From a virus, in IMG/VR virus record IMGVR_UViG_3300043446_002987, positions 1-24,026 of that record: a DNA stretch of 24,026 bases; one strand, written 5' to 3'. Below the pieces are notes generated by a model. The model had not been told where the DNA came from. It did no database searches and saw nothing but the letters and a program-made list of their open reading frames with translations. Position numbers and translations under genes: made by a program. This document shows, piece by piece, positions 2,891 through 23,927 of the stretch (positions are counted from its first letter, which is position 1; each line of letters begins with the position of its first letter).

Positions 2891-2891
2891 G

Positions 2892-2920
2892 AAGAGGGGT
2901 TTACATGACCCCTCTTTTTT
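2892..2920 (+). terminator. Rho-independent terminator before glycan operon
   Basis: Eight-bp stem AAGAGGGG/CCCCTCTT (2892-2899 and 2909-2916), loop TTTACATGA, and a T run through 2920. It would end transcripts from the small-gene region or from the structured leader. Its loop carries the -35 box of the next promoter. Confidence 0.85.
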
Positions 2921-2928
2921 CGTATAAT
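2900..2928 (+). promoter_or_regulatory. Promoter of glycan operon, inside the terminator
   Basis: TTTACA (2900-2905) lies in the terminator loop; 17 nt later, with the 3' stem and T tract as spacer, comes consensus TATAAT (2923-2928). The first gene starts at 2956. The same architecture recurs at 16285-16313 and 23706-23734. Confidence 0.75.
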
Positions 2929-12777: not shown

Positions 12778-13562
12778 ATTGTATCCTTTATCTTGTAAGA
12801 TCTTCAGATCAAGATGTTGAAGATTTCAATAAATCTCTAAGATTAGTAGAAGAAAATCTTATTCCATATACATCCAGTACTGATGTATTAGTATTTTGCG
12901 AAGAATCATTTGAAGATTATAAATCTAAAGTTCAAACTAATCTAAACCTTAGATATGAAACTATTGAGTTTAAAGTTCCTGATTATTCTCAAGAAATATT
13001 AGACCAGATTCCAGAGTTCTTTCCACATCCTACTCATGGGAACGGTCCAGTAGACTGGGGGCATCCAGGATTCTCTATGGGATACCGTCATATGTGTAGA
13101 TTTTTTTCTGGGGAACTTTATAATAATAGTGTTATAAAAGAGTATGATTATTACTTGAGATTAGATACCGATTCCTTTATTCATACTCCACTTAACTATG
13201 ATATCTTTAAGTGGGCAGAAGATGTTGGATGTTATTATGGATATATAGAACCCGCAATTCAAAAAGATAATCCAAAAGTAATTGAAGGATTGTGGCAAAC
13301 AGTTAATGAACTCATTCCAGAAAACTTTATTGAAGAGGGAATGATGTTCTATACTAATTTTGAATTGGGTAAAGTATCATGGTTCTTGACAAGTGAATAC
13401 ATGAGATTCTATAATGAGTTGGATCAAACTGGTGGGTTTTATACCAAGAGGTGGGGTGATGCTCCAATCAAATATCTTGGAGTAAATCTTCTCATGGAAC
13501 CAGAACATGTTATTCCAGTTAAAGGTTTTACATATCAGCACGGTGCAGTTTATACAGTCTAA
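12774..13562 (+). CDS. GT15-like (KRE2/MNT1-type) mannosyltransferase
   Basis: A 262-residue protein matching the fungal alpha-1,2-mannosyltransferase family GT15 in order and spacing: GYRHMCRFFSG (103-113), EYDYYLRLDTDSFI (123-136), YYGYIEP (154-160), NFELGK (195-200, with the acidic residue E197 at the position of the family's catalytic Glu), and GGFYTKRWGDAP (220-231) followed by GVNLL. GT15 enzymes transfer mannose from GDP-mannose and retain configuration. It lacks the N-terminal membrane anchor of the fungal Golgi enzymes. ATG 12774 overlaps the upstream TGA; an in-frame GTG at 12762 is the alternative. The donor pool is the same GDP-mannose used by the epimerase. Confidence 0.8.
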   Translation: MNCILYLVRSSDQDVEDFNKSLRLVEENLIPYTSSTDVLVFCEESFEDYKSKVQTNLNLRYETIEFKVPDYSQEILDQIPEFFPHPTHGNGPVDWGHPGFSMGYRHMCRFFSGELYNNSVIKEYDYYLRLDTDSFIHTPLNYDIFKWAEDVGCYYGYIEPAIQKDNPKVIEGLWQTVNELIPENFIEEGMMFYTNFELGKVSWFLTSEYMRFYNELDQTGGFYTKRWGDAPIKYLGVNLLMEPEHVIPVKGFTYQHGAVYTV

Positions 13563-15925: not shown

Positions 15926-16243
15926 ATGCTTAAGAAACTCTTATTAGGTTTAGCAATCTTGGGGGTTTCTACCCCTTCGTTTGCTCAAACATCTGTTCCT
16001 ACTGGAACACTGACCTCAGTTCCTATTAGTTCAAATATTTCTTGCAGAAATAAAACAAGATCAAAATATTTTGAACTTGCTGCAACAAATATGAGTAATG
16101 CAGATGATAATGGGCAGTGGGCAATTGTTAATGGAATGCGAACCCTTGTTTGGTGTCGTAATACTGAAGCAATTATCACTGTGATTGGATTTAATCTTGA
16201 TGCGATGAATGAACTTAGAGATGAGATTAAAAAGGCATTTTGA
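15926..16243 (+). CDS. Small secreted protein, 105 aa
   Basis: ATG 15926 starts a signal peptide (MLKKLLLGLAILGVSTPSFA, cleavage before QTS). The mature part of about 84 residues has two Cys (ISCRNK and VWCRNTE) that could form a disulfide in the periplasm. It begins 7 nt after the porin stop, so it is probably co-expressed with it from the porin promoter. I do not recognise a family; a periplasmic partner of the porin or a surface factor are both guesses from position. It ends before the terminator at 16278. Confidence 0.7.
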   Translation: MLKKLLLGLAILGVSTPSFAQTSVPTGTLTSVPISSNISCRNKTRSKYFELAATNMSNADDNGQWAIVNGMRTLVWCRNTEAIITVIGFNLDAMNELRDEIKKAF

Positions 16244-16277: not shown

Positions 16278-16303
16278 GGGGTGCTTGACACCCCTTTATT
16301 TTT
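16278..16303 (+). terminator. Terminator after porin block
   Basis: Stem GGGGTG/CACCCC (16278-16283 and 16289-16294), loop CTTGA, T-rich tail to 16303 interrupted by one A. It ends the porin transcript and contains the next promoter's -35 box. Confidence 0.8.
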
Positions 16304-16313
16304 GCTATATAAT
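16285..16313 (+). promoter_or_regulatory. Promoter of hli-ferredoxin block, inside the terminator
   Basis: Consensus TTGACA (16285-16290) runs across loop and 3' stem of the terminator; the T tract is the 17-nt spacer; consensus TATAAT is at 16308-16313. The Hli start codon at 16342 lies 28 nt on. A small hairpin TTCGT/ACGAA (16324-16328/16335-16339) directly precedes that ATG. Confidence 0.85.
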
Positions 16314-16341
16314 TGTGTAACAATTCGTAATAAAACGAAAA

Positions 16342-16551
16342 ATGACTGTAACAAAAAATGAGTTTGGGCAAATGAACATGTGGGCAAAAGAACCATCGAT
16401 GTATATGACCAAAGAAGATCTTGAACGTTATGGTATCGAACCCTATGCTGAGAAAGCGGAGAAAATGAATGGACGTTGGGCTATGGTCGGTATTGTTGCT
16501 GGGGCTATTTCTTATGCTCTCACTGGCAACCTCTTCTTTGGAGTAGTTTGA
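16342..16551 (+). CDS. hli: High-light-inducible protein (Hli), 69 aa
   Basis: A 69-residue single-helix chlorophyll-binding protein. The helix carries the signature AEKMNGRWAMVG (39-50), with E, N and R placed as in light-harvesting helices; IVAGAISYALTG completes the membrane span. The 35-residue N-terminal part is soluble. Hli proteins bind chlorophyll and carotenoid and quench excess energy near photosystem II. The C-terminus (TGNLFFGVV) departs from the TGQIIPG ending of the second Hli at 17146. No Shine-Dalgarno is visible; the start context ACGAAAAATG resembles that of psbA. Confidence 0.9.
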   Translation: MTVTKNEFGQMNMWAKEPSMYMTKEDLERYGIEPYAEKAEKMNGRWAMVGIVAGAISYALTGNLFFGVV

Positions 16552-16554
16552 TAC

Positions 16555-16583
16555 TTGACTATGACTTCGATTATCTTTACAAT
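16555..16583 (+). promoter_or_regulatory. Possible promoter for ferredoxin
   Basis: TTGACT (16555-16560), 17 nt, TACAAT (16578-16583): five of six matches in each box at ideal spacing. It overlaps the start of the 28-residue gene at 16561. If used, its transcript would begin inside that gene and mainly express ferredoxin; chance similarity remains possible. Confidence 0.4.
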
Positions 16584-16647
16584 AACGTCTGTTGCCTTCT
16601 TTGTTTTGTTGGCAATATCCGTTGAAAAAATTTGCGAGACTTACTAA
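16561..16647 (+). CDS. 28-aa single-helix membrane peptide
   Basis: Starts with ATG 16561 and reads [20 protein letters not shown], then a charged end (VEKICETY). The stop TAA shares its last base with the ferredoxin ATG (TAATG), as in coupled genes of this phage. The size and one hydrophobic helix are like the tiny subunits of photosystems and cytochrome b6f, but I see no clear match to a named subunit. There is no near Shine-Dalgarno; GGAG lies 17 nt upstream. It fits between Hli and ferredoxin in function as a thylakoid peptide (inference). Confidence 0.55.
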
Positions 16648-16940
16648 TGACCATTTTTAATGTCACTCTTCAATCTCCTGATGGCACAGAAACTACTATC
16701 GAATGTGCTGATGACCAATATATTTTGGAAGCAGCAGAAGAAGCAGGTGTTGACCTCCCTTCATCGTGTAAAGCAGGTGCTTGTTCCGCCTGTGCTGGAA
16801 AACTCATCTCTGGCACAGTCGATAATGAAGAACAATCATTCCTTGATGATGAGCAACAAGCAGAGGGTTGGGTCCTCACTTGTGTTGCTTATCCTACAAG
16901 TGATTGTGTGATTCTTACTGAGCAGGAAGAGAATCTGTGA
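16647..16940 (+). CDS. petF: Plant-type [2Fe-2S] ferredoxin
   Basis: A 97-residue ferredoxin with the cluster ligands C41, C46, C49 and C79 (CKAGACSAC then 29 residues and C). The fold-typical start [19 protein letters not shown] and acidic surface patches ([12 protein letters not shown]) are present. It accepts electrons from photosystem I and hands them to reductases. ATG 16647 is the family start; a longer frame from 16632 is unlikely because of the TAATG overlap with the small gene upstream. Cyanophage ferredoxins are known helpers of host reductases such as the phage bilin enzymes; no such enzyme is in this window. Confidence 0.92.
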
Positions 16941-19444: not shown

Positions 19445-20527
19445 ATGACAGCTTCTATTGCTTCACGTCAAAAACAATCAAATACTTGGGAACAGTTCTG
19501 CGAGTGGGTCACTTCCACCAATAATCGTTTGTATGTTGGTTGGTTTGGAACTCTTATGATTCCTACCCTGCTTGCTGCTACTGCTTGTTTCATCGTTGCA
19601 TTTATTGCAGCACCTCCCGTCGATATCGACGGTATCCGTGAACCCGTTGCTGGTTCACTCATGTATGGAAACAACATCATCTCTGGTGCTGTTGTTCCTT
19701 CGTCCAACGCAATTGGACTGCACTTCTATCCCATCTGGGAAGCAAACTCACTCGATGAGTGGCTATATAATGGTGGTCCTTACCAACTGGTAGTATTCCA
19801 CTTCCTGATTGGTGTCTTCTCTTACATGGGTCGTGAATGGGAACTTTCTTACCGACTTGGTATGCGTCCTTGGATTTTTGTTGCTTACAGCGCACCCGTT
19901 GCTGCTGCTACTGCAGTTTTTCTGGTCTATCCCTTCGGTCAAGGATCCTTCTCTGATGGTATGCCTCTGGGGATTTCGGGAACTTTCAACTACATGCTTG
20001 TTTTCCAGGCAGAACACAACATTCTCATGCATCCTTTCCACATGTTGGGAGTTGCTGGTGTCTTCGGTGGTTCTCTTTTCTCTGCTATGCATGGATCTCT
20101 TGTCACCTCTAGTCTCATCCGTGAGACAACAGAAGAAGTAAGTCAAAACTATGGATACAAATTTGGACAAGAAGAAGAAACCTATAACATCGTTGCCGCA
20201 CACGGATACTTTGGACGACTCATCTTCCAATACGCTTCCTTTAACAACTCTCGTAGCCTACACTTCTTTTTGGCTGCTTGGCCTGTTGTTGGTATTTGGT
20301 TTGCTGCTCTTGGAGTTAGCACCATGGCGTTCAACCTGAATGGTTTCAACTTTAACCAGTCACTCCTTGATAATAATGGTCGTGTGATCAACACTTGGGC
20401 AGACATTCTTAACCGTGCTAATCTCGGTTTTGAAGTAATGCACGAGCGTAATGCTCACAACTTCCCTCTTGACCTTGCTGCTGCTGAAGTAACTCCTGTT
20501 GCTCTCACTGCACCTGCAATCGGTTGA
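19445..20527 (+). CDS. psbA: Photosystem II D1 protein
   Basis: A complete, intron-free 360-residue D1 protein. Numbering runs one above the usual because of one extra N-terminal residue: the Mn4Ca ligands D171, E190, H333, E334, D343 and the tyrosine partner H191 are present, and A345 is the C-terminal processing site before a tail [14 protein letters not shown]. Position 131 (standard 130) is Glu, the residue of the high-light D1 form rather than the Gln of the low-light form. D1 turns over quickly in light; phage copies keep photosystem II going while host transcription is shut down. The gene has its own promoter, structured leader and terminator, so it is a single-gene unit. Confidence 0.98.
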
Positions 20528-20553
20528 CATCTGGGTTAAAATTAGATAAAGTG

Positions 20554-20575
20554 GGAGGGGAAACCCTCCTTTTTT
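20554..20575 (+). terminator. psbA terminator
   Basis: GC-rich stem GGAGGG/CCCTCC (20554-20559 and 20564-20569) closed by a stable GAAA tetraloop, then six T. It follows the psbA stop by 26 nt. Confidence 0.92.
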
Positions 20576-23382: not shown

Positions 23383-23430
23383 GCACGTTCATCCTAAGGG
23401 ACGGAAGTAGGGAAACCGAAGGAACGCACT
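23383..23430 (+). promoter_or_regulatory. Glutamine-type (downstream-peptide) riboswitch
   Basis: Stem CGTTC/GAACG (23386-23390 and 23422-23426) encloses ATCC...GGA, then GGAAGTAGG, GAAA and CCGAAGG, the conserved core of the glnA/downstream-peptide RNA class, whose members bind glutamine. It lies 30 nt before the small gene at 23457, whose RBS AAGGAGC is outside the core. Downstream-peptide RNAs are known in marine cyanobacteria and their phages, placed before exactly this kind of short gene. Confidence 0.85.
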
Positions 23431-23696: not shown

Positions 23697-23725
23697 AGAG
23701 GGGTCTTGACACCCCTCTTTTTTTT
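23697..23725 (+). terminator. Terminator after riboswitch unit
   Basis: Eight-bp stem AGAGGGGT/ACCCCTCT (23697-23704 and 23711-23718), loop CTTGAC, then a T run to 23725. It contains the -35 box of the next promoter. Confidence 0.9.
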
Positions 23726-23734
23726 GTTTATAAT
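23706..23734 (+). promoter_or_regulatory. Promoter of thyX unit, inside the terminator
   Basis: TTGACA (23706-23711) spans the hairpin loop and the first base of the 3' stem; 17 nt of stem and T tract form the spacer; TATAAT is at 23729-23734. The next ATG is at 23757. Confidence 0.87.
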
Positions 23735-23756: not shown

Positions 23757-23927
23757 ATGGACAAAGAAAAACTTAAGCTAATCATAAGGAATCTGGAATC
23801 TCTTGTTGACTGTTTGAAGTCAGAAGTGTATTCTGATACTGATTCCTACCTAAACTATGAGGACGTTGCTCCTCACCTTACCGACTACGATGAGATCTTT
23901 GATGACGATGATGGATACCCAGATTGA
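23757..23927 (+). CDS. Acidic small phage protein, 56 aa
   Basis: ATG 23757 has GGAGG 9 nt upstream; another ATG at 23752 is out of frame. The first 22 residues form a basic-amphipathic helix (MDKEKLKLIIRNLESLVDCL) and the rest is acidic and Tyr/Asp-rich (YEDVAPHLTDYDEIFDDDDG). It is the first gene after the composite promoter and precedes thyX with overlapping or near-overlapping ends. Family known only as a recurrent cyanophage gene to me. Confidence 0.7.
   Translation: MDKEKLKLIIRNLESLVDCLKSEVYSDTDSYLNYEDVAPHLTDYDEIFDDDDGYPD

Follow-up and report, generated by a model that had tools for sequence, protein, structure and literature searches.

A hairpin that holds the -35 box: a terminator-promoter composite upstream of hli and ferredoxin in a T4-like cyanophage

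Do the 36 nucleotides in front of a cyanophage high light inducible gene (hli) hold two signals that happen to share a gap, or one element with two uses? The window (the whole stretch of DNA analysed, 24,026 nt of IMG/VR record IMGVR_UViG_3300043446_002987) comes from a T4-like cyanophage, of which it covers 24 kb. Its near relatives by DNA include Synechococcus phages such as DSL-LC02, and its gene content includes hli, ferredoxin, photosystem II D1 (psbA) and a glucosyltransferase. The same 36 letters apparently act as a stop signal and as the next start signal, are maintained by selection at several genes, and apparently form a joint at which gene blocks are swapped.

Anatomy and setting of the hli element

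Read directly, positions 16278-16313 of the plus strand run GGGGTG CTTGA CACCCC TTTATTTTT GCTA TATAAT. The hairpin (16278-16294) has a 6 bp stem and a 5 nt loop, with the 5' arm GGGGTG at 16278-16283, the loop CTTGA at 16284-16288 and the 3' arm CACCCC at 16289-16294, and is supported by direct reading, by its fold (-10.8 kcal/mol) and by covariation of the arms at orthologous promoters. It is followed by the U-tract TTTATTTTT (16295-16303), so that the sequence shows the marks of an intrinsic (Rho-independent) terminator: a GC-rich stem (5-6 bp or more), a short loop and a U-tract next to the stem. The -35 box TTGACA (16285-16290) places TTGA in the loop and CA in the 3' arm, the -10 box TATAAT (16308-16313) lies exactly 17 nt later, and the U-tract doubles as part of the spacer between them. 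This sigma70-like promoter matches the consensus at 12/12 positions, with transcription predicted to start at about 16319-16321. The preliminary description had placed the two boxes in just this way, and its reading held to the base.

An ORF of 105 aa (15926-16243) with no PHROG match stops upstream of the composite, and hli (16342-16551; PHROG 178, E 1.2e-31) starts downstream on the same strand, followed by ferredoxin (16647-16940; PHROG 844, E 1.2e-44), all on the plus strand. The 105 aa ORF is the putative target of termination by the hairpin. A promoter-like TTGACT-17-TACAAT was also seen between hli and ferredoxin (16555-16583), and two orthologous loci (L272 and L303) carry TTGACA at the matching position. 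At 13386, within a coding ORF, a promoter of perfect consensus with an 18 nt spacer has no hairpin and is probably due to chance.

Recurrence and enrichment of the composite

The window holds at least three composites. The second (23697-23734, plus strand) consists of a terminator hairpin AGAGGGGT-CTTGAC-ACCCCTCT (23697-23718) and a promoter TTGACA-17-TATAAT (23706-23734) that putatively drives a small PHROG 878 gene (23760-23927, plus strand), after which a thyX-like start was read by eye. The third (2891-2928, plus strand) combines a hairpin GAAGAGGGGTT-TACAT-GACCCCTCTTT (2891-2917) with a promoter TTTACA-17-TATAAT (2900-2928), 3' of a wcaG RNA (2782-2886) and 5' of an NAD-dependent epimerase-like gene (2956). 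The hli element had been called a second copy of the one near the window's end; that element is indeed alike, and the count was understated by the one at 2891.

The hli and PHROG 878 composites share an identical architecture and the 12-mer CTTGACACCCCT, which the preliminary description took as proof of a recurring module. In orthologue alignments CTTGACACCCCT was present in 12/27 hli elements and 8/46 PHROG 878 elements, each site had its own orthologues of like architecture, and orthologous elements were more alike than copies inside one genome. Common descent of the two composites from CTTGACACCCCT was therefore unsupported, the 12-mer being one of many solutions, and their likeness would be as well explained by a common constraint (TTGACA together with a C-rich 3' arm). 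The recurrence itself stood, as did its excess over shuffled sequence; the argument from a copied 12-mer did not.

For that excess, both strands of 14 cyanophage records (about 1.9 Mb) were searched for promoters, defined by ≥10/12 consensus matches and a spacer of 16-18, and for terminators, defined by a stem of ≥6 bp that includes 4 GC pairs and by a U-rich tail, with dinucleotide-preserving shuffles as control; four records had been picked because they carry the motif and nine were isolates not picked for it. Terminators ending 5-18 nt past the start of a -35 box were observed 26 times across the 14 records compared to 0.4 in shuffles, and the window alone gave three composites compared to none. 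Of the offsets within 300 nt, the 10-19 nt bin alone held 23, other 10-nt bins held about two each, and the nine isolates not selected for the motif contributed 15 composites with the offset peak unchanged. A single sharp peak indicates more than two signals sharing intergenic space, and chance overlap was ruled out by the shuffles and the peak together. The scan of phage and relatives against shuffles that had been proposed thus found the composite far more often than independent terminators and promoters predict, so that the contrary outcome named in the preliminary description did not occur. A smaller second peak at 40-59 nt includes a class in which the promoter precedes the psbA terminator.

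In a wider IMG/VR scan for TTGACACCCC-N(3-30)-TATAAT, the spacer was exactly 17 nt in 86/121 among the matches listed; listed matches with a spacer of 16-18 (n = 96) included 31 with a simple hairpin and T tract and 25 with a compound hairpin and T tract. Every one of 30 listed composites preceded a same-strand ORF and 29/30 had a same-strand ORF stop within about 200 nt upstream. Cyanophage isolate genomes carried 0-7 copies under the strict definition, with none in Syn9, S-CRM01 or S-SZBM1, and the same calling found no composite of the cyanophage type in RB49 or T4. Rfam holds no family for the composite element itself. A further 12 promoters (≥11/12) in the nine isolates had the -35 box in a hairpin that lacks a U-rich tail, compared to 0.67 in shuffles.

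Several composites and related layouts lie close to structured RNAs or other terminators. A glutamine riboswitch aptamer (23384-23430) precedes short ORFs with a transcript that composite 2 would end. The wcaG RNA, a riboswitch candidate, is followed by composite 3 after 4 nt, so that the gene it putatively regulates has its own promoter inside the terminator. The same succession was found in six of the 11 records examined (the window, DSL-LC03, G002, G003, G005 and S-SKS1), with a weaker -35 box, TTGCAT, in G003, G005 and S-SKS1. At psbA, a promoter-like TTGACA-17-TAAAGT lies directly 5' of the terminator (20524-20570); from this placement a transcript would begin inside the 5' arm and escape the terminator. 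S-SCSM1 (at 125583) has this layout with both boxes at perfect consensus, and it was also seen in G001.

Conservation, covariation and chimeras at orthologous promoters

Orthologous promoters were sampled from 80 IMG/VR loci encoding ferredoxin and 80 encoding the PHROG 878 protein. The composite was present at hli in 49/76 loci (29/49 distinct sequences), and the architecture of composite 2 was retained before the PHROG 878 gene in 72/79 loci (46/51 distinct). The hairpin was absent from 15/44 distinct hli promoters, and the coupling of terminator and promoter is therefore not obligatory. In the alignments little or nothing changes at the beginning of the -35 box, in the T tract and across most of the -10 box, and the arms are variable. 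In all three element sets, a sequence's own arms paired better than arms swapped between sequences (p ≤ 0.0005, values that are optimistic because the search for hairpins favours the best pairing and because the sequences share descent). Pairing was assessed by this comparison and by register-wise counts; column-by-column pair counts from MAFFT alignments were set aside because loop lengths differ. The sixth -35 base and its partner were A-T in 18, G-C in 12 and T-A in 7 PHROG 878 elements, with others besides, and A-T in 20 and C-G in 5 hli elements. The last -35 base is thus A, G, T or C along with its partner, and the promoter itself bends to preserve the stem.

Thymines made up 5.8 and 6.8 of the 8 positions just 3' of the stem, with no matching A-run on the 5' side (about 3 of 8). 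At hli promoters the T tract was weaker without the hairpin (5.3 of 10) than with it (7.7 of 10; p 2e-6). A separate terminator further upstream was found at 3/13 promoters without the hairpin compared to 0/28 with it. A second, compound form has an inner stem CTGG..CCAG and an outer GC stem with TTGACA between both stems. It occurs (in L012, L027, L058, L095, L118 and others) mostly 5' of a phage protein that starts MTVKLLLLKSGEDVVAD or similar and looks Sm-like.

Upstream of the hli element the sequences are unrelated and fall into clusters of 24, 20, 7 and 6 members and some smaller ones; the four largest have the hairpin in 19/24, 20/20, 1/7 and 6/6, respectively. Two lineages at this one locus, known from metagenome contigs, are chimeric. 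In one (L275, from a single metagenome) the left flank resembles L259 (80-96%) and the right flank L290, L278 and L295 (96-100% near the element), and the 3' arm and the T tract are present with no 5' arm to pair with. In the other (L265 and L269, from two different metagenomes) the 300 nt that begin with TTGACA are nearly 100% identical to L264 and the upstream sequence is unrelated to it; the 5' arm belongs to an L312-like element, so that one position of the stem is mismatched. Both breaks lie within a common core of 7-9 nt around TTGACA. L274 was discarded as a third chimera because a single point mutation suffices. These chimeric stems suggest that the hli element marks a recombination joint, and recombination probably used the TTGACA core rather than merely leaving a trace there.

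Proposed function, rival readings and known cassettes

We consider it very probable that the composite is a two-way punctuation mark, which ends the upstream transcript, starts a transcript dependent on host sigma70 and, at hli-ferredoxin, is a recombination joint. In RNA arriving from upstream, the hairpin and U-tract would form an intrinsic terminator and end the preceding gene's transcript. In double-stranded DNA the same bases would be a consensus promoter for the sigma70 RNA polymerase of the host, with the -35 box in the hairpin, the U-tract as spacer and the -10 box just after. The new transcript would begin about 25 nt beyond the hairpin and, since this start lies past the hairpin, be spared by its own terminator. 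At hli-ferredoxin the invariant TTGACA core would be the place where cassettes whose upstream parts are unrelated meet, as has been proposed for PeSL (promoter-early stem-loop) cassettes. Transcription would be early; the T4-like cyanophage P-HM2 expresses its genes in early, middle and late clusters (PMC5082946). A literature search found no cyanophage map of start sites or transcript ends.

Plain compaction would leave both signals functional and make their overlap a product of short intergenic space, with a benefit of length only and no link to recombination. The non-composite hli promoters with a separate terminator shortly upstream (L259, L307) fit such a reading, homology to unrelated upstream genes must stop somewhere and a conserved promoter edge is a natural place for it, and the greater likeness among orthologues than within one genome points the same way. 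However, the stems of two lineages are chimeric and broken inside TTGACA, and the offset is sharply fixed rather than scattered, so that we regard compaction as possible but doubtful. The near-perfect palindrome centred on the -35 box might instead be the operator of a dimeric DNA-binding protein of host or phage that represses the promoter, for example an AbrB-like protein, and the hli cluster of S-SCSM1 does contain an AbrB-like gene. An operator is read by its bases, whereas here the stem changes freely while pairing is retained, the T tract is one-sided as in a terminator, and unrelated genes show the same architecture with different stems; an operator therefore seems highly improbable.

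Regulated attenuation, in which late antitermination or an RNA further upstream (wcaG, for example) would let transcription bypass the hairpin and so add conditional read-through to the early promoter, draws on the position of composites directly after the wcaG RNA and on Kayvirus, where a terminator in front of an early promoter is crossed by late transcription (PMC7698491). However, most composites have no known structured RNA upstream. We also know of no antitermination factor for these composites, and we judge attenuation unlikely.

Two-way punctuation has relatives among phages. Composites of promoter and terminator are known in T4-like phages, and a 2014 paper by Comeau is reportedly titled 'Composite conserved promoter-terminator motifs'; what is new is the geometry, with the -35 box in the hairpin and the U-tract as spacer. 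PeSL cassettes of T4-like phages (Arbiol 2010 and Comeau 2014, both cited in PMC4503421) are composite promoter-terminator motifs mediating gene shuffling. The cyanophage element resembles them in fusing a sigma70-like promoter and a stem-loop terminator into one short composite between same-strand genes and in its link to shuffling, which is seen at hli only, with its unrelated upstream families and two chimeric lineages. The effective terminator stem-loop of PeSLs is matched in sequence form by the stem, U-tract and covariation. Measured directly, RB49 has 18 overlapping promoter-hairpins compared to 0 in shuffles, 10 within the -35/-10 spacer and eight over the -10 box; 17/18 lack a strong T tail and none of the 18 has the -35 box inside. 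The cyanophage element shows neither placement: its -35 box sits in the hairpin and its U-tract serves as spacer. PeSLs are numerous in variable regions, and the 18 copies in RB49 (by RB49 criteria) compare with at least three in our 24 kb and the 0-7 strict copies per cyanophage isolate. The element would work like a PeSL and is not classed as one here, the comparison being with the geometry measured in RB49. The general phage layout of a separate intrinsic terminator and sigma70 early promoter, as in morons, likewise ends one transcript and starts the next, whereas the cyanophage signals share bases and evolve together.

The S-PM2 'ORFanage' paper raises the question of a role for PeSL-type elements in a cyanophage, sees few and rejects the mechanism for that region (PMC4503421). 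Yet S-PM2 has a composite before hli03 (124309), and its relatives show joints there. The hli promoters of S-SKS1 and DSL-LC02 have composites as well. The ORF annotated upstream of hli03 ends at 124312 and the -35 box TTGACT spans 124309-124314 (L429 1310-1315), which puts the stop codon inside both the -35 box and the hairpin loop. It is quite possible, and we put it forward tentatively, that cyanophages have a cassette geometry of their own in which the -35 box is a covarying stem strand, that the TTGACA core is an exchange site for blocks of photosynthesis and accessory genes, and that PeSL-like joining is the way in which their variable regions evolve, contrary to the conclusion drawn for the S-PM2 region.

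The composite supplies a sequence rule for locating transcript boundaries in cyanophages and would extend the PeSL idea to these phages with a different design. It is also a short insulator-promoter part ready for use. A single strand in it answers both to RNA folding and to DNA recognition, which makes it a clean case for the study of overlapping selection. Bacteria of oceans and lakes receive host-like photosynthesis genes from cyanophages, and the hli element offers a concrete joint where such genes may be swapped.
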